Below are positions 22,344-33,470 of a stretch of 64,000 nt of DNA, in pieces. The notes beneath the pieces are model-generated. The model was given only the letters and a program-made list of their open reading frames with translations. It did no database searches and was not told the origin of the DNA. The DNA comes from Anaerolineales bacterium (lineage in GTDB: Bacteria; Chloroflexota; Anaerolineae; Anaerolineales; UBA4823), in assembly GCA_016929095.1 (NCBI GenBank), contig JAFGJM010000054.1:1-64000 (forward strand), read 5' to 3'. How positions within the stretch are numbered: position 1 is the first letter of the stretch; the number at the start of each line of letters is the position of its first letter. The position numbers were made by a program, and so were the translations under genes.

Positions 22344-22976
22344 ATGTTAAATATCAAAACCCTGACACTTGGACCGGTTCAAACGAACTGTTATTTGTTA
22401 TCCGATTCACTCTCCAAATCGGCGGTGGTGGTTGACCCTGCCTGGCACGGGCTGTCAATCATCGAAGCGGCAAAGCAGGAAAATCTGTCCATCGAAGCCA
22501 TTTGGCTCACCCATGCACATTTTGATCACCTGGGAGGGGTGGCTGAAATTTGCGTTCAGCTTTCAGCGCAGCCCAAGATACTACTGCATAAAGATGATTT
22601 CCCTTTGTGGCAGGCGCAGGGCGGGGCGCCGTTTTTCGGCATGCATGTGGACACCGGTCCGCAACCCGACACATGGGTCAGTCATGGGCAAAAAATACAT
22701 TTGGGGGAATACGAATTCGAAGTGCGCCATGCCCCCGGTCATACACCCGGGCACGTGATTTTTTATTGCGCAACTGAATCGATTGTATTCTGCGGGGATG
22801 TGATTTTCCAGGGCAGCATCGGGCGCACGGATTTACCCGGCGGGGACTATCAAACCTTGATGGAAAGCATTAAAACGCAGATCATGGTGCTGCCTGATGA
22901 AACCCGCCTATTATCCGGGCATGGACCGGAGACCACGGTGGGGGAGGAAAGGCAGTTTAATCCGTTTTTATTCTAG
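22344..22976 (+). CDS. Metallo-beta-lactamase-fold hydrolase, glyoxalase II-like
   Basis: The 210-residue frame has the metal motif THAHFDHLGG near residue 55, a second His in HAPGHTPGHVIFY, and the later Asp in VFCGDVIFQGSIGRTDLPGG, with a final His in SGHGPETTVGEE. This is the compact YcbL-type hydroxyacylglutathione-hydrolase-like group that binds two metal ions. The natural substrate is not determinable from sequence. It follows the membrane protein gene by 7 bases. Confidence 0.92.
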   Translation: MLNIKTLTLGPVQTNCYLLSDSLSKSAVVVDPAWHGLSIIEAAKQENLSIEAIWLTHAHFDHLGGVAEICVQLSAQPKILLHKDDFPLWQAQGGAPFFGMHVDTGPQPDTWVSHGQKIHLGEYEFEVRHAPGHTPGHVIFYCATESIVFCGDVIFQGSIGRTDLPGGDYQTLMESIKTQIMVLPDETRLLSGHGPETTVGEERQFNPFLF

Positions 22977-23060
22977 GGGATTGTTAAGTATGATTTTATT
23001 TTTTTGCTCTGATAATTTGCATGAGAGATCAAAGGATAATATAATTAGTATCAGTAGACA

Positions 23061-23090
23061 TTGATTATTTAGGATAATTCTGAATATAAC
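23061..23090 (+). promoter_or_regulatory. Putative promoter of the HEPN gene
   Basis: TTGATT (23061-23066) and TATAAC (23085-23090) are separated by 18 bases in a very AT-rich stretch, 63 bases before the ATG. AT-rich DNA gives chance matches, so confidence is modest. Confidence 0.35.
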
Positions 23091-23153
23091 AACAAAACGG
23101 CTATATGTATGGATGTTTTCTTTACATAATGTTGAGTTTTGAAAGGGGTAAAT

Positions 23154-23735
23154 ATGACAATAAAAGTAGATGAATCATTACTCCATTGGAATTATTTTAT
23201 TGCCTTATCCGATGATTTGGAAGATGTTTCAAGATATATAGAATTTTGTGAAAAAAATTTTTCTACTTATTCAATAGAATTAACTCATTTGCTTTTATCA
23301 GCTTCTTCCGAGGTAGATGTTGTAATAAAAGAGTTATGTAAATTTATAAACCCGAGAAAGGTTGAAAATATTGATGAATATAAAGCCATTATTGTTCCTG
23401 CAATTCCTGAATTTCCTAGCGAGGAAGTTTTTATTCCAAGGTATAGTATTACTCTTAATCCTTGGAAGAATTGGTTAGGCGCCACAAATCCTTTGTGGTG
23501 GAGATGCTATAACCATGTTAAGCATGAAAGAGATAAAAAGTATCCTGAAGCAAATCTTAATAATGTGTTAAATGCTATGGGCGGATTGTTAATAACTAAC
23601 TTTTACTTTTATAAATATAAGTTTCACGTAGAGGGAATAAATGAAGTAAAAGAATTTACAATTAGATTACAACCGGAATCTATTTTTCTACGAATGAAAC
23701 CAGATTATTTTTATCGTCATGCATATTTACCATAA
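23154..23735 (+). CDS. HEPN-like domain protein, putative RNase
   Basis: The 193-residue product carries R117-x6-H124 in WRCYNHVKHERDKKY, the RX4-6H active-site pattern of HEPN ribonucleases, followed by the helix NLNNVLNAMGGLLI that is usual for this fold. The N-terminal half is helical (HWNYFIALSDDLEDVSRYIE). Family knowledge: HEPN proteins are metal-independent RNases found in toxin-antitoxin and defence systems; activity here is inferred. ATG 23154 is chosen because GAAAGGGG sits 5-12 bases upstream. The gene is visibly more AT-rich than its neighbours, a sign of transfer, and an attC-like element begins 10 bases after its stop. Confidence 0.72.
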   Translation: MTIKVDESLLHWNYFIALSDDLEDVSRYIEFCEKNFSTYSIELTHLLLSASSEVDVVIKELCKFINPRKVENIDEYKAIIVPAIPEFPSEEVFIPRYSITLNPWKNWLGATNPLWWRCYNHVKHERDKKYPEANLNNVLNAMGGLLITNFYFYKYKFHVEGINEVKEFTIRLQPESIFLRMKPDYFYRHAYLP

Positions 23736-23744
23736 ATATTCGAA

Positions 23745-23875
23745 GCCCAACAAGTGCATACAGCCGTCCCCGCCTTTGGTGATGGATAAGCAGCGAGATT
23801 TGTCCCGTTTGATTACGGGCAAAGATTGATTTAATTTTACTCCTACCTACCCGCTGGAAATGCAAACCGTCAGGC
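23745..23875 (+). repeat. attC-like element 1 (131 bp)
   Basis: The left end GCCCAAC fits the attC R'' consensus RYYYAAC and the right end GTCAGGC nearly fits R' GTTRRRY, followed by TGC. The centre holds a hairpin, CCCG (23804-23807) with CGGG (23816-23819). The block GCGAGATTTGTCCCGTTTGA, then TTACGGGCAAA, is shared in altered form with the elements at 25378 and 26245. It begins 10 bases after the HEPN gene, as attC sites do after cassette genes. Confidence 0.6.
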
Positions 23876-23945
23876 TGCAAGAGATTGTGATCCGATCATA
23901 AAATGGGTGTTTTTCGCTATCAGGAGGTTCCAAAGGGAAAAAATC

Positions 23946-24347
23946 ATGAGACCAGATGTTTACAATCTTTTTGCCCTCTATGAGCCGCAATTTCAATACA
24001 AATGGAACCGGATCATTGCCTCAGGATTCGATGACTTTGCCGCAGAATTGGCCAGGCTTGCCGGAGAGTTGGATCTCCATCAAAGTGTAGATGGAAGGAA
24101 AGTATTCTGGGTGGATGCCCAGGGTTGCCTTGAAGCTCTATTTTGTTATATCATCGATCCTCAAGACCTGGAAAGCATCCTATCGATGTATCAAGATATC
24201 AAGGAAAAGCAAGTGCCTGTATCCTATGCCATCATCGAACAACGGGAAGATGGTTTAAGGCAGTATGATATTTTTCGCATATCTGAGAAAAGCTACCTTG
24301 AGCATTGCAACCGGGCGTGGGTACCAGGCACTTCTGCCGACGAATAA
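23946..24347 (+). CDS. Hypothetical protein, 133 residues
   Basis: I do not recognise this gene. The product is soluble, mixed alpha/beta and acidic, with no signal peptide or membrane helix. The start ATG 23946 is supported by AAAGGGA upstream; a TTG further up was rejected. Features to note are FALYEPQFQYKWNRII at the start and a repeated Tyr/Asp pattern near the end (GLRQYDIFRISEKSYLEH). It lies just after attC-like element 1, so it could be a cassette gene. Confidence 0.65.
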   Translation: MRPDVYNLFALYEPQFQYKWNRIIASGFDDFAAELARLAGELDLHQSVDGRKVFWVDAQGCLEALFCYIIDPQDLESILSMYQDIKEKQVPVSYAIIEQREDGLRQYDIFRISEKSYLEHCNRAWVPGTSADE

Positions 24348-24475
24348 GAAAAATTGCACTCAAAAAAGCAGCCAACATATCCGATAAACACTTTACAATA
24401 ATTCAATAGTCTCATCGATCTACGTAGAAAGTGTAGTGTATTTTTCATAGAGAGATATTTATTTACAGCCCAATC

Positions 24476-24583
24476 CCGCAGAAACCTAACCTGGCTGTCG
24501 CTGCGATACAGCCTTGGTGAGGTGCGGCTAATAAAACTTACCTGCAGGGTGCAGGATTTTATCTCCGGTCAGGTAAGCTATTT
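24476..24583 (+). ncRNA. Candidate structured leader: compound hairpin plus terminator
   Basis: This fills most of the gene-free stretch 24348-24654. CCGC (24476) and ACCT (24484) pair with AGGT (24520) and GCGG (24524). Inside, GGCTGT (24493-24498) pairs with ACAGCC (24508-24513), leaving an asymmetric internal loop. Next, CTTACCTG (24537-24544) pairs with CAGGTAAG (24570-24577), followed by CTATTTTTT. A folded domain followed by a terminator 70 bases before a gene is the layout of a transcriptional attenuator or riboswitch. I could not match it to a known class. The remainder of the gap shows nothing. Confidence 0.4.
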
Positions 24584-24654
24584 TTTAGTGTTGAGAAAAA
24601 TAAATCCTATTCGTATAGAAAAAAAATCACAAATCATTCTAAGGAGAGTACATT

Positions 24655-25305
24655 ATGGAAACAACGCAAAAGAGAAGGTTATTCTGGTCATTTTATAAAG
24701 GTCTATTTCTAAGGCCAACAAAAACTTTCCAAGAATTATTACTCGATGATCGTCGTGTGAAATTCGGTTTCTTTGCTATTTTGATTCCTGCCATTGGATA
24801 TACCCTTTTTTATTTCATGGCATGGCAAGGAGGAGGCGCACCTTCCACATTCAAGCCCTGGCTTGCATTACCCATTGAAGATTATTATTACTATGATATC
24901 TTTCTGGTAGCTCCCAGCATGTTGCTGTGCTGGATATCCACTTCAGGTGTTGTACATCTTTTATCTCGCCTGTTCTCTGGAGAAGGTACATATGAAGATA
25001 CAATCACAGTAATTGGCTTTGGAATTAGTGTTGCTACGTGGAGTACACTAATTCATGATTTTACGGATGCGTTTTTAGGCTTTATTGGTGTCATAGACCT
25101 GAAAGCCTATGAAATGGCACTCAATGCGCCAACATTCTGGAGGGCACTCTTGCTAACCCTATTCGCAATATACTTTATCTGGTTTCTTGTCCTATTTACG
25201 AAAGGAATAAGAACAGCCCACTCTTTGCCATTATGGAAGTCATTTCTTCTAGCCTTCATAGGATTGGTAACCTATCAAGTTCTTTTTTTGGTCTTCAATC
25301 GTTAG
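24655..25305 (+). CDS. Yip1-like integral membrane protein
   Basis: The 216-residue protein has about five hydrophobic helices. The cytoplasmic N terminus, FYKGLFLRPTKTFQELL, resembles the start of bacterial Yip1-domain proteins, in which a short pre-helix carrying an RPTxTF-type motif precedes the membrane domain. Further support is LLSRLFSGEGTYEDTITVIGFG, another typical Yip1 region. Function in bacteria is poorly known. AAGGAG precedes the ATG. The candidate attenuator at 24476-24583 lies just upstream, and attC-like element 2 begins 73 bases downstream. Confidence 0.7.
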   Translation: METTQKRRLFWSFYKGLFLRPTKTFQELLLDDRRVKFGFFAILIPAIGYTLFYFMAWQGGGAPSTFKPWLALPIEDYYYYDIFLVAPSMLLCWISTSGVVHLLSRLFSGEGTYEDTITVIGFGISVATWSTLIHDFTDAFLGFIGVIDLKAYEMALNAPTFWRALLLTLFAIYFIWFLVLFTKGIRTAHSLPLWKSFLLAFIGLVTYQVLFLVFNR

Positions 25306-25377
25306 GTAGAGTAAAATCTCATCAGGCAACGGATGAGTAGCTTTTTTCAATCAGTGAGGCTTGCATAGCGTAAAAAT

Positions 25378-25502
25378 GCCTAACAAAGCTTGCACCTGAA
25401 CGGCTACTGTCCGGAGGGTATGAAGCGTGATTTTTCCAGTTTGGTTACGGGCATATACGTGTCAGGGTCAAACCTGCCCGGCATGTGATGCCCACATTGG
25501 GT
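25378..25502 (+). repeat. attC-like element 2 (125 bp)
   Basis: The left end GCCTAAC is a perfect attC R'' match (RYYYAAC); the right end ATTGGGT deviates from GTTRRRY at one base. Inside it shares GCTTGCAC, TGA, GCGTGATTT, GTTACGGGCA, CAGGGTC and TGATGCCCA with element 3 in the same order and spacing. It separates the Yip1-like gene from the mntA-hepT pair. Confidence 0.65.
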
Positions 25503-25515
25503 TGCCGTTGCTGAG

Positions 25516-25546
25516 TTGCTGAGAAAGCATTTCAATAGAGTATAAT
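25516..25546 (+). promoter_or_regulatory. Promoter of the mntA-hepT pair, probably leaderless
   Basis: TATAAT (25541-25546) ends 6 bases before ATG 25553. TTGCTG (25516-25521) lies 19 bases upstream as a weak -35 box. The message would have almost no 5' leader. The promoter lies between attC-like element 2 and the gene, inside the putative cassette. Confidence 0.5.
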
Positions 25547-25552
25547 TTCAGT

Positions 25553-25858
25553 ATGACCCATCAAGAGAAAAATCTTTCGTCTTTGCTTGAACACTTGCGC
25601 CAAGACCTTCCAAAGCTTAAAGAAGAATATTCGATTGAAACCTTGGAAGTGTTTGGTTCGTATGTTCGCGGCGAAGAACAAACCACCAGCGATTTAGATC
25701 TATTGATAACGTTTTCTGAATTACCAAGTCTGTTCAAATATATTGAGATCGAAAACCGCTTATCGGATTTGTTGGGGGTTAAAGTAGATTTAGTTATGAA
25801 AGATGCTCTCAAGCCAGCGATCGGTAAAAGGGTCCTCAACGAGGCTGTGGAGATATGA
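25553..25858 (+). CDS. mntA: MntA-type minimal nucleotidyltransferase (antitoxin)
   Basis: The 101-residue protein has the nucleotidyltransferase signature G35-S36-x10-D47-x-D49 ([15 protein letters not shown]). In characterised MntA/HepT modules this enzyme silences the HEPN toxin by adding AMP to a tyrosine of the toxin. The pair is tightly linked here: the mntA stop overlaps the hepT start (ATGA). The catalytic residues are intact, so the antitoxin may still work although its partner is frameshifted. Confidence 0.9.
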
Positions 25859-26209
25859 ATCGAGAACAACTCTACATTGATTATCTCCAAGATATTTTTG
25901 AGTATGCGGAGAAAGTTCAAAACTTCGTTGCTGGTATGTTAGAGGATGATTTTTTACAAGATGAGAAAACCGTGTTTGCGGTAATAAGAGCGTTAGAAGT
26001 TTTAGGGGAAGCGTCCAAGAAAATTCCACAAGAAGTAAGAGAGAAATATCCCAATGTTCCATGGCGGGAAATGGCTGGAACACGGGATAAGTTAATCCAT
26101 GATTACTTTGGTGTAAATTTTGGGCGTTATATGGAAAACAGCTATTGAAGATATTCCTCAACTGATCCCCATGATTCGTCAGATTTTCAAGAACGAAACT
26201 TCAACGTAA
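25855..26209 (+). pseudogene. hepT: HepT HEPN toxin, frameshifted near the 3' end
   Basis: The first 90 codons give a normal HepT: R77-x4-H82-D-Y84 ([10 protein letters not shown]) is the RX4HXY motif with the catalytic R/H and the tyrosine modified by MntA. The frame then hits TGA at 26148. Removing one G from the run at 26122-26124 restores [20 protein letters not shown] and a stop at 26209, the normal HepT end. So one base was inserted, or the assembly has a homopolymer error. A 97-residue truncated protein that keeps the active site is still possible. Confidence 0.85.
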
Positions 26210-26244
26210 GTTATTGGTCCGAAAAACTGTTTCACTGGGCGGCG

Positions 26245-26370
26245 GCCCAATCCTGCTTGCACTTGATTTGGCTAGCGCCCTGTGGGTAAGCTGCGCGATT
26301 TATCACAATTAATAACGGGCAAAGCAGCGCCAGGGTCGCAACCGCCCAGCCTTTGATGCCCATGTTGGGC
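26245..26370 (+). repeat. attC-like element 3 (126 bp)
   Basis: The ends are GCCCAAT, one base off R'', and GTTGGGC, a perfect R' followed by TGC. The ends can pair along all seven bases with one wobble. Shared internal blocks with element 2 are GCTTGCAC, GCGCGATTT, AACGGGCA, CAGGGTC and TGATGCCCA. It begins 36 bases after the restored hepT stop. Confidence 0.65.
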
Positions 26371-26463
26371 TGCTTGCGCTGGAAGTGAGAAAATAAATTG
26401 CGACTACAAAAACAAGAATAAGGAACGCTTTGGAAGATGTTAAGCGCTCGGAAGAACAAAGCG

Positions 26464-26952
26464 ATGAATCAACCCTATCACCTTGAAAAACAAGAAGATA
26501 TAAAAAGCCTCAAAGCCTTTGCATTAGATGAGCTTAAACGCCAGCGTAAAACCAGCGATATAATCGAGCATCTTTGCCAACGAACGGGGTGGCATTGGGT
26601 AGAAGCAGAACAATTTCTGGAGTCGGTCCGAGTTGATAACTCTTCCCAATTGGAAGCGCATAAAAACCGCCTTTTTATTCTTGCAAGTCTTGTCATGATT
26701 GTTGGCGGGATGCTAAACATAGCTATCTTCTGTTTTTGGATTTTCTACAATTCGCGTTCCGGCGAATTTCTTATTCCCAATGATGTAGAAGGCGGGATAT
26801 TGCTCCTGATCAATCAATTGGTTTGGATGTTTGTCAAATCCCCATTTGCCTACATTTTTTACTTTGCCGCTTTAACTGGGATAGGGATGATAATTGGTGG
26901 CATGATCGGTTTTGTGATTGCTTTTTGGCGTGCATTTATTTTGCGGAAGTGA
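26464..26952 (+). CDS. Hypothetical membrane protein with helical N-terminal domain
   Basis: I do not recognise a named family. The 163-residue protein starts with a soluble helical segment of about 65 residues (DELKRQRKTSDIIEHLCQRT, then HWVEAEQFLESV). Two or three hydrophobic helices follow (about residues 70-95, 105-125 and 130-158), the last one Gly/Ile rich. ATG 26464 has GGAAG nine bases upstream; an ATG at 26437 would add nine residues and is less well supported. It lies between attC-like element 3 and an R'-like site at 27052, so it is a putative cassette gene. Confidence 0.6.
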   Translation: MNQPYHLEKQEDIKSLKAFALDELKRQRKTSDIIEHLCQRTGWHWVEAEQFLESVRVDNSSQLEAHKNRLFILASLVMIVGGMLNIAIFCFWIFYNSRSGEFLIPNDVEGGILLLINQLVWMFVKSPFAYIFYFAALTGIGMIIGGMIGFVIAFWRAFILRK

Positions 26953-27051
26953 TGGAATTGTGATCGTTACTATCCTGATAAAAGCAGCCTTGATGAAATG
27001 CATTCTGATAACCACGCAATACAGAAAATACAAAAGCCGCTCAACCAGGGC

Positions 27052-27058
27052 GTTAGGC
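27052..27058 (+). repeat. Isolated attC R'-like core
   Basis: GTTAGGC, followed by AGC, matches the attC R' consensus and sits 45 bases before the GNAT gene start. A convincing R'' partner was not found; TGATAAC at 27006-27012 is the nearest approximation. Supported mainly by position, so weak alone. Confidence 0.25.
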
Positions 27059-27102
27059 AGCATTCCTGAACGGCTTTGAGCCTGTCCAAGGGAAGATGAT
27101 CA

Positions 27103-27990
27103 ATGCAGAAGTATGTTGTTAGAGACTATCAAAAGGGATTCGAAGAAGACCAAGTCAGAATCGGTCTTGAAGTTGCACGGGACTGGATCTGGCCGTATGC
27201 CTACAATCTCACCGACCTGCTGCAGCTCCATGCTCAACCCGATTTCGACCCCACAACCCGGCACTATTGTTTCCTGGGCGGGGAGATGGTTGGCTACATG
27301 TTCTCTGCGGTGATGCCATTAGAGGACGGTGATGTCTCCACGGCGATTCTGGATTTCCCTCGCATGATGCCAGGCCATGAAGAGGCTGCTGAACGGCTAA
27401 TTGAAAGGGCATTTGAGACACTCAAGAGAAGAAATGTTTCCCGAGTCGTGGGTAGAGTCACAACAATGTGCCCTGGCGACATCCAATTAGCCGAAAGAGC
27501 AGGATTCTCCGTCAGCGATTGGGGCTGCAAAGTCTACTACTCCTACGAGATGGAATGGGGGAGACTCAACATTCCTGGTGGTGCAGTTGAGGAAGTGGAT
27601 GCTCAAGCAGACCTGGGTGAATACGCCTAAATCGCTGCACGTTGGTACAGACGTTCACCAGAATGGTGCCGCTCTCTTCTGGCAGAATGGCATGAAGCAG
27701 GCCTCATCACCCATTTGGGTGTGCGGGAAGGTGGAAGACTGATTGCCGCGTGCATGGCTGCTCCCAACACTGTGCGGCCATCAACAGCAGCAGTATATTA
27801 CATCTATACACCCGATGAGCACAACCTGAGACTGATGCTGGCGAGAGTGGTGGACAAATGCGTCGATTGTGGCGTTCACAATGTCATCGCTGATCTTGTC
27901 AATGAGCATCGGCAGTACGAATCCGTCTACCAGGAACTGGGCTTCAAGAAGGTTGCCGAATGGGCACGTTGCGAAAAGGTTCTCGCCTGA
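27103..27990 (+). pseudogene. Tandem GNAT-type acetyltransferase split by an in-frame stop
   Basis: The first 175 codons encode a GNAT-like half (GGEMVGYMFS, then MMPGHEEAAERLIERAFETL and LAERAGFSV). TAA at 27628-27630 ends it. Reading through in the same frame continues IAARWYRRSPEWCRSLLAEW into a second GNAT-like half with HNLRLMLARVVDKCVDCGV and YESVYQELGFKKVAEWARCE, ending at 27990. Continuity in one frame with no gap points to a single substitution that created a stop in a ~295-codon gene. If the second half is translated separately, it lacks an obvious start. Substrate unknown. Confidence 0.7.
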
Positions 27991-28046
27991 GGCATCGCTG
28001 TTGAAATTCCGTTGAGTCAACATGGCAAGAGCGGCCACCGTTGGGC
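27985..28046 (+). repeat. attC-like element 4 (short form)
   Basis: GTTGGGC (28040-28046), followed by TGC, is a perfect R' core. The left boundary GCCTGAG is a degenerate R''. Between them AGCGGCC (28030-28036) can pair with GGCATCGCT near the left end, and TCAAC with GTTGA, in the manner of L' and L''. It abuts the stop of the GNAT gene, the normal attC position. Much shorter than elements 1-3. Confidence 0.4.
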
Positions 28047-28178
28047 TGCAAAAGGTAATTCAGTATGACTGAATCCTAATAACAATGTGGGATAATTGGG
28101 GAAAGACGGTTAGACTTTCATTCCAAGCCGATAATATGTTTGGAATTTCGATAATTCTTGTGGGTAATAAGGAAAAAG

Positions 28179-28457
28179 ATGATGAGCCAGAAACAACAAG
28201 ACGAAATGGAGCAAAGAATAAAAGAGCAGCGGGAGATAGAGAAACAACAGGAACATGATCGAAAAGTACGCCAAGAAGAAAGAAAACAGCTAGAGCAGCA
28301 GCAGGAGCAGAAACAAAAACGCCAACGCGGAGAACAGCTCATACTGGAACAGCAACAGGAAGAACAACGAAAGCAGCAACAACAGGATCAGCAGAAACTG
28401 GAGGTACAACAAGAACGAAAACGGAAGTTGCGACAAGAAGAGCAAAATAAGAAATAA
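28179..28457 (+). CDS. Gln/Glu/Lys-rich coiled-coil protein
   Basis: The 92-residue product is almost entirely charged and Gln residues (runs such as EQQQEEQRKQQQQDQQK), predicted as one long coiled coil with no hydrophobic core. ATG 28179 (or 28182) follows AAGGA by 5 bases; a TTG at 28158 is less likely. The low complexity means the frame could be open by composition alone, since CAG/GAA/AAA repeats rarely form stops. Position between two attC-like cores suggests a cassette gene. Function unknown. Confidence 0.45.
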   Translation: MMSQKQQDEMEQRIKEQREIEKQQEHDRKVRQEERKQLEQQQEQKQKRQRGEQLILEQQQEEQRKQQQQDQQKLEVQQERKRKLRQEEQNKK

Positions 28458-28518
28458 TGGGAGTGTTGGGAACATCGTCCATGCACATTCCCGACGCCAT
28501 GCTTCTCGAAAGCAAACT

Positions 28519-28525
28519 GTTAGGC
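28519..28525 (+). repeat. attC R'-like core after the coiled-coil gene
   Basis: GTTAGGC followed by TGC is the same R'-plus-TGC signature seen at 26364 and 28040. It lies 62 bases after the coiled-coil gene and 31 before the next gene. A matching R'' was not identified, so only the core is annotated. Confidence 0.3.
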
Positions 28526-28555
28526 TGCCTGGTAAGACGCTGCTGAGGTGAAAAC

Positions 28556-29119
28556 TTGAGTCAGAAAAAGCATGTCTATCAATGGTCTAAAAAAGATCGA
28601 TTACTGCATTTGATATCTGCTGCGCCTCTGATAACCTTTTACATAGGCTCAATTTATCTGCTGGCAAGAGAGTCTATCTATTTAGCTGGGATCTTCTTGT
28701 TGCTGTGGGTGGGGGTCAACCTCTGCGTGGCCAGTATCTGTGCCGGATGTCCCTATCGGGGTGGGTATTGTCCTGGTGTATGCCAATTATACTTTGCGCC
28801 ATTCCTGTCGATGTTGATGTATAAAGACACAGAGAAGAGGCTCAGTCATTGGTCGTTCAAAGTCAATTTAGCCTTGCTGGGAATCTTCGGGATTGGCAGC
28901 TACGTATTTGCCTTCTATTGGCTATTTCGTTTGCACTGGCAGGAGCATCCCCTGGTCGTTCTCGGTCTTCTGGTTCTCTTGCTCCTGCATATGCCCTTGT
29001 CTTTCTTCATGCTGTGTCCGAAGTGCGGCTACAATAACATCTGCCCGATGGCGAATGTGCATAGAGTATTCAAGAAAGATAGTGATTTCGACGGTGGGGG
29101 AGATGCATCGTCAGATTGA
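28556..29119 (+). CDS. Membrane protein with two cysteine clusters
   Basis: I do not recognise the family. The 187-residue protein has about four membrane helices. A first Cys cluster lies between helices (CAGCPYRGGYCPGVC, near residues 62-76) and a second after the last helix (CPKCGYNNICPMA, near residues 154-166). Such C-x2-C patterns could bind zinc or an iron-sulfur cluster; this is inference. The TTG start at 28556 has GAGGTG at 28546-28551, about five bases upstream. It follows an attC R'-like core. Confidence 0.65.
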   Translation: MSQKKHVYQWSKKDRLLHLISAAPLITFYIGSIYLLARESIYLAGIFLLLWVGVNLCVASICAGCPYRGGYCPGVCQLYFAPFLSMLMYKDTEKRLSHWSFKVNLALLGIFGIGSYVFAFYWLFRLHWQEHPLVVLGLLVLLLLHMPLSFFMLCPKCGYNNICPMANVHRVFKKDSDFDGGGDASSD

Positions 29120-29215
29120 GGCTACCAAACCGATATTGTCGCTGACCGGGGTTGTGCCCCGTGTGCGAGTGGCGTGATTTATGCATTGACTGTTGACGGA
29201 AAGGAGTTACGAGTG

Positions 29216-29938
29216 ATGAAACCTGCGTCCATTCCTGCTTCGCTGACCGAGAATCCAATCGATCCGCAATGGAAAACGCTGTTCTACCTTGCAGCTTTCG
29301 CAGCGATCTACGTGATCATATTGATCCCAATCCAGGGGATCATTTTCATTGTCTCACCACCCCCCAGCACAGTGCTCGGTTTTTTCCGGCTTTTCCACGA
29401 AAACGTAATGATAGGGTTGATTAACCTCGACCTGCTACTGACAATTGATTACATTCTTGTGCTCTTCATTTACTTCGTATTGTTTATTGTACTAAGCCGA
29501 AAAGAGAAATCCTTGAGCCTCATTGCCACCATATTGGGTTGCCTCAGTATCACCCTCTACATTGTCTCCCGAGAAGCAACGTTCAGTATGATTGCTCTTA
29601 GCCATGAGTACTTCGCTGCAACGACCGAGATGGAGAAAGCAGCTACACTCGCTGCCGGCAAGACACTTCTTACTGTGTACAATGGCTCATCCTTTAGTAT
29701 CAGCTATGTGCTTGGTGGATTCACTATGCTGCTCTTCTCGATAGCTATGCTGAGAGACGCGTTGTTCGAGAAAAGCGTTCCCATCACTGGCTTGATTATG
29801 GGTGTCCTGATGCTTGTGCCACCAACGGTGGGGGAGGCTGGGGTTTGGATATCCATGATCTCGCTGGTTCCCACGTTGATATGGATGATTCTTATGTCGC
29901 GTTGGTTGTTCAGGAGTGCCAGGACGCTAGCTCAGTAG
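29216..29938 (+). CDS. DUF4386-like multi-helix membrane protein
   Basis: The 240-residue product has six to seven hydrophobic helices with short polar loops. Its overall layout resembles DUF4386 membrane proteins of unknown function; the match is from memory and tentative. AAGGAG at 29201-29206 supports a start at GTG 29213 or ATG 29216, not at the distal GTG 29174. No attC-like site was seen after it, so it may mark the end of the cassette-like region. Confidence 0.6.
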   Translation: MKPASIPASLTENPIDPQWKTLFYLAAFAAIYVIILIPIQGIIFIVSPPPSTVLGFFRLFHENVMIGLINLDLLLTIDYILVLFIYFVLFIVLSRKEKSLSLIATILGCLSITLYIVSREATFSMIALSHEYFAATTEMEKAATLAAGKTLLTVYNGSSFSISYVLGGFTMLLFSIAMLRDALFEKSVPITGLIMGVLMLVPPTVGEAGVWISMISLVPTLIWMILMSRWLFRSARTLAQ

Positions 29939-30039
29939 CGGGTATGAAGGGAGACATTCGGGATAGTACCGCACAAGGGGTTGGCGTTTGGCAGGCGGTG
30001 GGATCGGAGATCCAGCCGCGCATCATTCCGGGCTGATTA

Positions 30040-30066
30040 TTGGCATTGCACTGAAAATGTTATAAT
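30040..30066 (+). promoter_or_regulatory. Probable promoter of the FG-GAP gene
   Basis: TATAAT at 30061-30066 has TTGGCA at 30040-30045, a 15-base spacing that is shorter than ideal. The implied leader is about 130 bases and holds no other gene. Confidence 0.4.
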
Positions 30067-30200
30067 ATTATTGAGAGGGGATATCCTGGGTGGTGGATCG
30101 ATGAGTGGAAATAGGGGTGGTTGCTCGCTTATTGATCCCGTTCCTATGGATCATTGAAGTTATCATCATTGGGACAGTCTCAATTCGGCGGAGGTGAGAA

Positions 30201-31880
30201 ATGAAACCATTGAGGACTGCATCAGTAATATTATCGTTCTTAATATTGACCGGCGTTGTGTCGACCGCGAGCGCGGAAAACCATCACGCTATTCAAAACT
30301 TGGCTCCAACAACGGGATACACAGGCAATGCTTTCGCCGATCTGATTGTGGGAGTCCCGTGCGAAGATATCCCGGATGGGATGTCTCAAATCAGTGATGC
30401 GGGTTTGATTCACGTGTTATATGGTTACCCTTCAGGATTGGGTCCCGGGGAAAATGCGATCTTTCATCAAAATGTAGATGGGGCTGAAGACGAAGCGGAA
30501 ACCGATGACGATTTTGGCAGCGCTCTGGCGAGCGGAGATTTCAATGGTGATGGCAACTACGATATTGCCATTGGGGTGCCGTATGAAGATATCGGTACAG
30601 TGGTCAGTGCAGGCGCCGTACATGTGATATATGGTTCCAATTTGGGCGGTCTTTCTATTGATGGAGATCTATTCCTGAATCAAGACACTTCATACGTGAA
30701 TGATGTAGCAGAAGTGAGCGATCATTTTGGGTATGCCCTGGCGGTCGGAAATTTTAACGGGGATGCTTATGACGATCTGGCAATTGGCGTCCCCCTTGAA
30801 GATTTCGAAAATGGCACAACGGTTACAAACGCCGGGAGCGTCAACGTGATCTATGGCTCCTCAGCCGGATTGAATCCCAACGGGGTTTTGCCCGACCAAT
30901 ATTGGCACCAGAACAGCGCAGACATCGCAGATAATGTAGAAGACCATGATTGGTTTGGCTATGCCCTGGCTGCCGGGGATTTCGATAGTGACAATTATGA
31001 TGACCTGGCGATCGGCGCGCCGGGTGAAGATTCGGAGGCTGCCAGTAAAGATGATATCGGCGTGGTGCATGTTATATATGGCACGTCGAGTGGGCTTTCG
31101 GCGATCGGAGACCAGCAGTGGGAGCAGTATGACTGGGGCGGTAGTGCGGAATCTGAAGCCTACGACCACTTTGGAAAATCCTTAGCCGTAGGCAAGTTCA
31201 AATGGCTGACCTATGATGCGCTGGCAATAGGGGTGCCAGATGAGGATATTGGCAGCATTCAAGACGCCGGAGCGGTCAATATCCTTTTCGGTTCATCCGG
31301 CGGACTGAATGACGATAACGTGGTATTCCTGTACCAGGATGGTGGCTACATCGAGGAAACAGCCGAGGCTTATGACCAGTTTGGGTTTACTCTGGCGGCG
31401 GTCGATTTCAGCGGTTATGGGACGCATAACCTGGTTGTTGGCGTACCCTATGAAAATCTTGGGGATCCCTTAGTTAACGATACGGGTGGTGTTCATGTGC
31501 TAACCATATCGGGTGGAAATTTCACAGGAGCAAGTTTGAGATACTTCCACCAGGATCGGACCGGCATCCCGGGTGACCTTGGGGCGTATCATACGTTCGG
31601 TCTCTCTTTGGCGCCGGGTGATTATAACGGAGATGGCAAGGAAGATTTGGCAATTGGCGTGCCGGGGGATAGCATTACAGCCCATGCGGATGGTTCTGTG
31701 GTTGTGATTTACGATGATGTCTGGGGGGGACTGGCTGATTATGAGCCGCAATATTGGCATCAGGGGGGCAATCTAGACGGCGAGGGTGAGGCGGATGACC
31801 GTTTTGGCCAGGAATTGGCTGCCCTGCCCAGCACAGGAGCTCAACCTTCCAGGGTCTATTTACCCGTGAGCATACGGTAA
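30201..31880 (+). CDS. Secreted FG-GAP repeat protein (integrin-alpha-like beta-propeller)
   Basis: A signal peptide (MKPLRTASVILSFLILTGVV, cleavage likely after ASA) precedes seven repeats of about 60-75 residues. Each contains an FG start, a calcium-binding-like loop such as DFNGDGNYDIAIGVPYED, and VHVIYG. Repeats 2-4 and 7 keep the Asp-rich loop; 5 and 6 are degenerate. The first repeat lacks its FG strand, while an extra DDRFGQELA strand occurs at the C terminus, so the ends can close one seven-bladed propeller. The tail VYLPVSIR resembles endings I recall from Anaerolineae secreted proteins. Ligand unknown. Confidence 0.88.
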   Translation: MKPLRTASVILSFLILTGVVSTASAENHHAIQNLAPTTGYTGNAFADLIVGVPCEDIPDGMSQISDAGLIHVLYGYPSGLGPGENAIFHQNVDGAEDEAETDDDFGSALASGDFNGDGNYDIAIGVPYEDIGTVVSAGAVHVIYGSNLGGLSIDGDLFLNQDTSYVNDVAEVSDHFGYALAVGNFNGDAYDDLAIGVPLEDFENGTTVTNAGSVNVIYGSSAGLNPNGVLPDQYWHQNSADIADNVEDHDWFGYALAAGDFDSDNYDDLAIGAPGEDSEAASKDDIGVVHVIYGTSSGLSAIGDQQWEQYDWGGSAESEAYDHFGKSLAVGKFKWLTYDALAIGVPDEDIGSIQDAGAVNILFGSSGGLNDDNVVFLYQDGGYIEETAEAYDQFGFTLAAVDFSGYGTHNLVVGVPYENLGDPLVNDTGGVHVLTISGGNFTGASLRYFHQDRTGIPGDLGAYHTFGLSLAPGDYNGDGKEDLAIGVPGDSITAHADGSVVVIYDDVWGGLADYEPQYWHQGGNLDGEGEADDRFGQELAALPSTGAQPSRVYLPVSIR

Positions 31881-31940
31881 AATCGAGCCGCGGGGTGTGA
31901 ATAGGGGGCAGCCAATCTAAACAATGAGAATTGCTAACGA

Positions 31941-33470
31941 TTATTTCGCGTAATCCACCGCCCGGGTTTCCCGGATCACGGTAACCTTAATCTGCCCGGG
32001 ATATTGCATGGTCTCTTCGACTTTTTTGGCAATATCCCTCGCCAGGCGAATGGCGTCCAGGTCGTCGATATCTTCGGGTTGCACAAAGATACGGATTTCG
32101 CGTCCGGCTTGCAGGGCATAGCTCTGGTTGACCCCTTTGTAGGAGTCGGCGATCTCTTCCAGGGCGCGCACCCGTTTAAGATATTGTTCAAGACTCTCGC
32201 GTCGAGCGCCCGGCCGGGCGCCAGAAATTGCATCGGCGGCTTCAATAATGGCGGCTTCGAGTGTATCCTGGTCGACTTCATGATGGTGAGAGGCGATGGC
32301 ATTGACGACTTTGGCGTTCACTCCCAGGCGGCGGACAAACTCTGCGCCAATTTGCGCGTGTGTGCCTTCGACATTATAATCCATGGCTTTGCCCAAGTCA
32401 TGCAACAATGCCCCGACTTTACATACTTCCACATCGGCGCCTAATTCGGAGCCAATGACCGCGGCGAGTTTGGCTGTTTCGACCGCATGCGATAATTGAT
32501 TTTGACCATAGGAAGTGCGGAATTTCAATCGCCCCAGGACTTTGATGATCTCGGGGTGTAAACCAGGGACGCCGGCATTAAAGGCAGCTTCTTCACCGGC
32601 TTCAACAATAACTCGATCGACTTCTTTTTGCTCGGTTTTCAGGATTTTTTCGATATGAGCCGGATGAATACGGCCGTCCAAGACCAATTTTTCCAATGAC
32701 CGTCGGGCAACTTCACGTCGTACCGGGTCGAAGCAAGAGATCGTGACTGCTTCAGGCGTATCATCTACGATCACATCTACTCCGGCAGCCTGTTCGAAGG
32801 CATGGATATTTCGACCGTTCCGCCCAATGATGCGCCCTTTCATCTCGTCTGAGGGAAGGGGAACGACGGAAGTCGTTATTTCTGAAACATGCTCGGAGGC
32901 AACGCGCTGAATGGCAGTGGTGATAATGGCGCGTGCTTTACGGTCTCCTTCTTCCTTGGCTTCGGCTTCGATTTGGCGGATAATCCGAGCCATATCGGTG
33001 CGCGTATCCTTTTCCACTTCATCCAATAATTGCTGCCGCGCTTCTTCGGTGTTCATAGCAGAGATGCGTTGCAGTTCCTCCATTTGTTGGATATGTAATT
33101 TTTCCACATCGTTGGCGCGTTTATCAATCACGCTCTGGCGTTTATTGATGGCTTGTTCACGCTTTTCCAAACGGTCGGCGCGGATATCCAACTCTTCACG
33201 GCGTTTTTGTAAACGATCTTCTTCCCGGCTGAATTCATTTCTGCGGCGGACAACTTCTGCTTCAGCTGTCTGGCGCATTTCGAGCGCCTTATTTTTAGCA
33301 TCCAGTTCGATATCTTGTGCTTTTTGGGTTGCTTCCGTAACAATTCTGTCGGCGTTGGCGCGTTCTTTTTCCAATGTTTTTTCAACAATTGCCTGTTTAA
33401 TGAAAAACCCAACCACTCCTCCAGCGATAACGGCGACAATAATAATGATGACCCACATCCATATATCCAT
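31941..33470 (-). CDS. rny: Ribonuclease Y
   Basis: RNase Y is a membrane-anchored endoribonuclease that starts mRNA decay. The 509-residue protein has an N-terminal helix (residues about 3-25), a long charged coiled coil, a KH domain (IIGRNGRNIHAFEQAAGVDV) and an HD domain (HAVETAKLAAVIG, LLHDLGKAMDYN, HAQIGAEFVRR, ASHHHEVD). All catalytic His/Asp pairs are visible. It lies 4 bases downstream of recX, so the two form an operon. Confidence 0.97.
   Translation of the reverse strand: MDIWMWVIIIIVAVIAGGVVGFFIKQAIVEKTLEKERANADRIVTEATQKAQDIELDAKNKALEMRQTAEAEVVRRRNEFSREEDRLQKRREELDIRADRLEKREQAINKRQSVIDKRANDVEKLHIQQMEELQRISAMNTEEARQQLLDEVEKDTRTDMARIIRQIEAEAKEEGDRKARAIITTAIQRVASEHVSEITTSVVPLPSDEMKGRIIGRNGRNIHAFEQAAGVDVIVDDTPEAVTISCFDPVRREVARRSLEKLVLDGRIHPAHIEKILKTEQKEVDRVIVEAGEEAAFNAGVPGLHPEIIKVLGRLKFRTSYGQNQLSHAVETAKLAAVIGSELGADVEVCKVGALLHDLGKAMDYNVEGTHAQIGAEFVRRLGVNAKVVNAIASHHHEVDQDTLEAAIIEAADAISGARPGARRESLEQYLKRVRALEEIADSYKGVNQSYALQAGREIRIFVQPEDIDDLDAIRLARDIAKKVEETMQYPGQIKVTVIRETRAVDYAK

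Follow-up and report, generated by a model that had tools for sequence, protein, structure and literature searches.

A probable decayed gene cassette cluster without an integron integrase between the MBL-fold hydrolase and RNase Y genes of an Anaerolineales bacterium

Is a row of small genes separated by attC-like elements, with no integrase in sight, a relic of integron gene capture, a dispersed repeat that resembles one, or an island brought in by a different mobile element? The question is raised by a locus in contig JAFGJM010000054.1 of an Anaerolineales bacterium (assembly GCA_016929095.1), the first 64,000 nt of which were analysed here and are referred to as the window. An initial annotation of this DNA, made from the letters alone, had described a gene cassette layout and proposed a cluster of attC sites lacking an integron integrase (CALIN). 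We conclude, with a probability of roughly 0.88, that the block is a decayed CALIN, a cassette array with worn attC sites for which the assembly contains no integron integrase. The earlier proposal is supported by an attC covariance match, the absence of IntI and the lineage-specific insertion of the block, with the qualification that the sites have decayed.

Three elements related to attC

The three elements, designated E1 (23745..23875, 131 nt), E2 (25378..25502, 125 nt) and E3 (26245..26370, 126 nt), all lie on the plus strand, in positions that agree to the base with those first reported. E2 and E3 are spaced by 867 bp and E1 lies 1633 bp before E2, all elements and the further cores described below being situated past the 3' end of a plus-strand gene, as had been noted. 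In nhmmer searches of the window, E2 and E3 match over their full length (E = 6e-12 to 1e-11), the central block of E1 is matched at E = 4e-7 by a model of E2 and E3, and E2 is matched at 2e-13 by a model of E1 and E3. A 42-base central block is common to all three with 76–79% identity. The ordered blocks seen in the initial annotation thus define one repeat family beyond chance, and profile searches with models of E1 to E3 detected no further member below E = 0.05 in the window.

The ends of the elements carry boxes that resemble the outer boxes of attC in a partially eroded state. The left (R'') and right (R') boxes are GCCCAAC and GTCAGGC in E1, GCCTAAC and ATTGGGT in E2, and GCCCAAT and GTTGGGC in E3, pairing at 5, 6 and 7 of 7 positions, respectively. 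With regard to the attC-type cores originally assigned to these ends, TGC does follow the right box in all three elements but one box per element, the right one in E1 and E2 and the left one in E3, has drifted from the consensus (RYYYAAC on the left, GTTRRRY on the right), the other box being good. Pairing of the inner L'/L'' arms is imperfect, as previously judged by eye.

Relationship to attC was assessed with covariance models that we trained on attC arrays adjoining bona fide integron integrases of other Anaerolineae, the DNA fetched around these integrases containing clear sites of about 60–140 nt. Model R1 comprises 23 IntI-adjacent sites and no sequence from the source genome, and model R2 comprises 117 sites of other loci, with no window sequence but including other sites of the source genome. 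With default filters, R1 returned two matches in the window, E2 at 15.3 bits (E = 0.0066) and E3 at 9.7 bits (E = 0.27), both on the plus strand with ends identical to those first described and ranking as the top two in the 64 kb; with filters off, E1 was recovered at full length at 7.9 bits. R2 raised these scores to 27.5 bits for E2 (E = 2e-5), 16.5 bits for E3 (E = 0.016) and 8.6 bits for full-length E1 (E = 1.8). Across 737 kb of DNA taken from loci in other phyla, which served as the negative control, its highest score was 10.2 bits. The covariance match named in the initial annotation as a check was therefore obtained for E2 and E3 with these self-built Anaerolineae models.

A search for more copies, also suggested at the outset, revealed attC sites on other contigs of the source genome, scoring with R2 at 81 and 58 bits on contig C13, 42 bits on C17, 40 bits on C30 and, more weakly, 20 bits on C61, in a genome-wide list that may be incomplete as some first-look candidates were left unscored. 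R1 scores for the C13, C17 and C30 sites were 66, 31, 38 and 21 bits. A search with the C30 site as sole query recovered both E2 (1.7e-10) and E3 (8e-5), so E1 to E3 belong to an attC type that also occurs in other parts of the genome.

These data bear on the possibility that the elements belong to a different dispersed repeat family, similar to repetitive extragenic palindromes or miniature inverted-repeat transposable elements or consisting of a small structured RNA, with attC-like ends by chance. E1 is indeed most similar to the others in the central block and not in the arms, which barely pair. However, no Rfam match was detected, the sole other relative found in the genome is the C30 site, itself a match to the attC model, and the ends, length, orientation and position after plus-strand genes all fit attC. 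A BLAST search with E3 against 38 family genomes returned short matches only, those inspected not being attC, and thus no other clear copy of E3. Combined, these results make a dispersed repeat highly improbable.

The other attC sites have contexts of their own. At C13:2441-4089 (L103, L105 and L161), three minus-strand attC sites of 81, 58 and 14 bits form another CALIN of the source genome, located near the contig start and possibly continuing off the contig. Single sites occur at C30:1326-1452 (L106), followed by a GNAT-like gene, and at C17:74957-75088 (L104), preceded by a gene for a methyltransferase-like membrane protein, both gene identities being assigned by eye. The sequence at C61:6854-6966 (L160) has a TTTTCAAGCATT...GCTTCGAGTTTTCTCT block in common with IntI-adjacent attC of relatives and is probably a fossil attC.

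Insertion site, integrase and decay

Synteny in 20 family genomes delimits an inserted block of ~8.96 kb (22977..31940), extending from the gene for a metallo-beta-lactamase (MBL)-fold hydrolase to that for RNase Y. The flanking genes, which are convergent (MBL-fold hydrolase at 22344, RNase Y at 31941), are adjacent in the congener G396 and in most relatives, the gap spanning 57–194 bp across eleven measured genomes and ~140 bp in G396, and homology of the window to G396 resumes at 31942. No attC match was found at the fetched MBL–RNase Y stretch in any of the 20 relatives (20/20). Read most simply, these data indicate that the source lineage acquired the insert after its split from G396, and the empty site in relatives provides an unusually clear comparison for an integrase-less cassette cluster. 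In five relatives (L274, L275, L276, L281 and L284), this junction is occupied by 2–3 kb of other genes, including open reading frames (ORFs) of ~590 and ~410 aa, and may be permissive for insertions.

The cleanness of the insertion, together with the lack of attC remnants at its last two genes, would be compatible with a genomic island delivered by another element, be it a transposon, phage or integrative element, the attC-like matches being coincidental. The larger ORFs of the insert, however, showed no transposase, phage or integrase domain, and a 27.5-bit match at E2 with a co-oriented E3 at a distance of 867 bp is an arrangement not attributable to chance. Such an island is accordingly scarcely credible as the source of the block.

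The absence of a visible integrase, originally noted for the window, extends to the whole assembly (3.9 Mb, 61 contigs, estimated 87% complete), in which no integron integrase exceeds the TIGR02249 cut-off, the best match scoring 34.5 bits compared with 265 in a search that read through stop codons. The assembly does encode four other tyrosine recombinases, none of them on the source contig. Neither intI nor attI is found beside the array, which does not, therefore, constitute a complete chromosomal integron.

A hairpin is the defining feature of a working attC. The bottom-strand fold of E1, E2 and E3 is no better than that of shuffled sequences, with z scores of −0.22, +0.92 and +1.28, respectively, compared with −3.70 and −3.74 for the bottom strand of IntI-adjacent sites; other attC sites of the source genome give intermediate values (−0.7 to −2.3). 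As the IntI-adjacent sites fold far better, the poor fold of E1 to E3 is explained by decay and, in the absence of the hairpin, the elements are classed as attC-derived and not as functional attC. Decay is also evident in the cargo, where two genes are broken, one HepT-like by a frameshift and one GNAT-like by an in-frame stop. E1 to E3 are thus probably decayed and, we infer, inactive at present. It is very unlikely that E1 to E3 and the C30 site instead represent a divergent attC subfamily that keeps the central block (GCGNGATTT...) over the hairpin arms and is still moved non-canonically by a recombinase.

A further explanation, that the integron system is still active and its intI gene, located in the 13% of the genome missing from the assembly, acts in trans, draws on the incompleteness and fragmentation of the assembly, on the observation that several contigs of relatives end within a few kb upstream of intI, so that assembly could lose this gene, and on the well-kept appearance of the 81- and 58-bit sites on C13. 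It is nevertheless unlikely. The source contig runs well beyond the block on both sides, the flanks consisting of syntenic, conserved chromosomal genes, so that no intI adjoins the array, and the lack of a fold in E1 to E3, the loss of the G of the E2 right core box and the broken cargo genes speak against continuing activity.

Cargo genes and weaker candidate remnants

The ~9-kb block carries about ten small foreign genes, every one on the plus strand. The leftmost ORF (23154..23735, 193 aa, no known family) is followed 10 bp downstream by E1, and the next (23907..24347, 146 aa, alternative ATG at 23946) also belongs to no known family. The third encodes a 216-aa membrane protein with a Yip1 domain (24655..25305, Pfam Yip1 1.2e-11), for which no relative was found among 300 other genomes of the order. 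A toxin-antitoxin pair lies between E2 and E3, consisting of an MntA-like nucleotidyltransferase antitoxin (25553..25858, Pfam NTP_transf_2 4e-15, PADLOC PDC-S09 8e-28) and a HepT-like HEPN toxin gene (25855..26148, Pfam HepT-like 4e-23) that is frameshifted near its 3' end, the HepT match stopping at profile position 100 of 120 and the C-terminal reading resuming in another frame. Beyond E3, an ORF of 171 aa without significant family match (26437..26952) has hydrophobic stretches that suggest a membrane protein, and a GNAT acetyltransferase-like gene (27103..27990) is broken by a single in-frame stop codon at 27628 and matches Acetyltransf_1 at 5e-4 on read-through. These are followed by a low-complexity ORF of 99 aa rich in Q, E, K and R (28158..28457), an ORF of 187 aa (28556..29119), a DUF4386 ORF (29174..29938, Pfam DUF4386 6e-9, later ATG start possible) and, as the last gene of the insert, an FG-GAP repeat protein gene (30201..31880, Pfam FG-GAP 6e-43), around which no attC was found. 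In tblastn comparisons of the cargo proteins with the sampled array loci, a single distant match was obtained, in which the product of the 28556 ORF was 24% identical to a relative encoded downstream of the source genome's C17 attC.

Additional plus-strand sequences in the block resemble parts of attC. A possible remnant, GCTCAAC...GTTAGGCAGC (27039..27061), follows the ORF at 26437-26952 and scores 12.4 bits with R2 in the window (E = 0.19). Two possible right ends follow the GNAT frame ending at 27990 (28015..28049, core GTTGGGCTGC at 28040, 10.0 bits, E = 0.8 with R2) and the ORF at 28158-28457 (28503..28528, core GTTAGGCTGC at 28519, a weak profile match with E = 0.8 to 2.6). A candidate missed initially, possibly the left portion of another attC-like element (29125..29199), begins 6 bp past the ORF at 28556-29119 and is matched by nhmmer at E = 0.05 with the model of E2 and E3, and more weakly with other models. 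The lone R'-TGC cores previously listed at 27052 and 28519 do exist as cores, but GTTAGGC at 27052 is followed by AGC and not TGC; of the shorter element placed at 27985, the right end alone (28015-28046, 10.0 bits, E = 0.8) finds support, the remainder finding none. The core 10-mer pattern is not enriched in the window (11 found, 7.4 expected) and GTTRGGCNGC proved uninformative as an attC marker, most of those viewed among its 67 genome matches lacking an attC-like context. Between two cargo genes, a small, strong palindrome, CCTAACCTGGCTGT...ACAGCCTTGGTGAGG (24485-24528, fold z −3.2), has attC-like ends and was rejected as an additional attC on account of its short length and score of 4.2 bits. 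It is followed by an inverted repeat, ACTTACCTG...CAGGTAAGC, and a T-run (24537-24595) that look like an intrinsic terminator.

Origin and significance of the cluster

Several observations weigh against a decayed CALIN. E1, taken by itself, does not reach significance as attC (7.9–8.6 bits, E about 1–2). The candidates at 27039, 28015, 28503 and 29125 are partial and individually near chance, the lone cores and the element at 27985 being weak remnants at best. The two rightmost genes (29174 and 30201) are not followed by a convincing attC and part of the insert may therefore have another origin. Finally, with the assembly 87% complete, an integrase could sit in the missing part. Set beside these are the features that the array has in common with known CALINs, namely two or more attC-like sites that lie close together, point the same way and follow the 3' ends of genes, identified by the covariance match although themselves decayed, no IntI nearby, and small unrelated genes that include a toxin-antitoxin pair; the sites are more degenerate than the integrase-adjacent attC of relatives.

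Chloroflexota are listed among the phyla carrying integrons (PMC8618304, PMC9668308). Within the class Anaerolineae, to which the closest named relatives of a protein encoded nearby belong, 98 of the 396 genomes sampled have an IntI above the NCBIfam cut-off, with arrays of 60–140-nt attC sites, and the congener G396 has an attC array of its own; integrons thus look common in Anaerolineae. Chromosomal integrons of related Anaerolineae have attC of ~130 nt beside IntI with a left arm, GCCYAACAAAGCNTGCACCTGA, nearly the same as that of E2, but, unlike these, the present array has no adjoining intI or attI. Cassettes likewise occupy chromosomal positions that lack intI and attI in the Xanthomonas CALINs found at a distance from the integron locus (PMC12444791) and where insertion takes place at non-classical attG sites (Loot et al. 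2024, as cited in PMC12444791). The present array differs from the attG cases in that insertion by IntI at such a site is, here, what we infer.

Proposed origins of CALINs include off-target insertion by an IntI encoded elsewhere, loss of a recognisable intI and rearrangement (PMC8618304). Off-target insertion is favoured for this array because there is no intI remnant beside it and the chromosomal insertion is clean. An integron integrase, either once encoded by this lineage itself or provided from a different replicon or cell, would have placed cassettes between the MBL-fold hydrolase and RNase Y genes, possibly with GTTAAGT at 22983 as the left junction; this motif, 7 bp past the left flanking gene, fits GTTRRRY and could be there by chance. 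Cassettes would have been added one after another, in a single orientation, after the split from the congener, each carrying a small gene with an attC at its 3' end, the MntA/HepT pair included. With the integrase lost or absent, recombination would have ceased, leaving attC sites and cargo genes to drift.

The cluster is a real but ordinary relic of integron gene capture, given that Chloroflexota are already known to have integrons and that CALINs are a known kind of cluster (PMC9668308, PMC8618304, PMC9024848). Its recovery shows that attC models trained within one lineage can detect fossil arrays near the detection limit and, with an empty site in relatives, better-kept sites elsewhere in the genome, and decaying sites and cargo at the locus itself, the case shows the coming and going of an integrase-less cluster.

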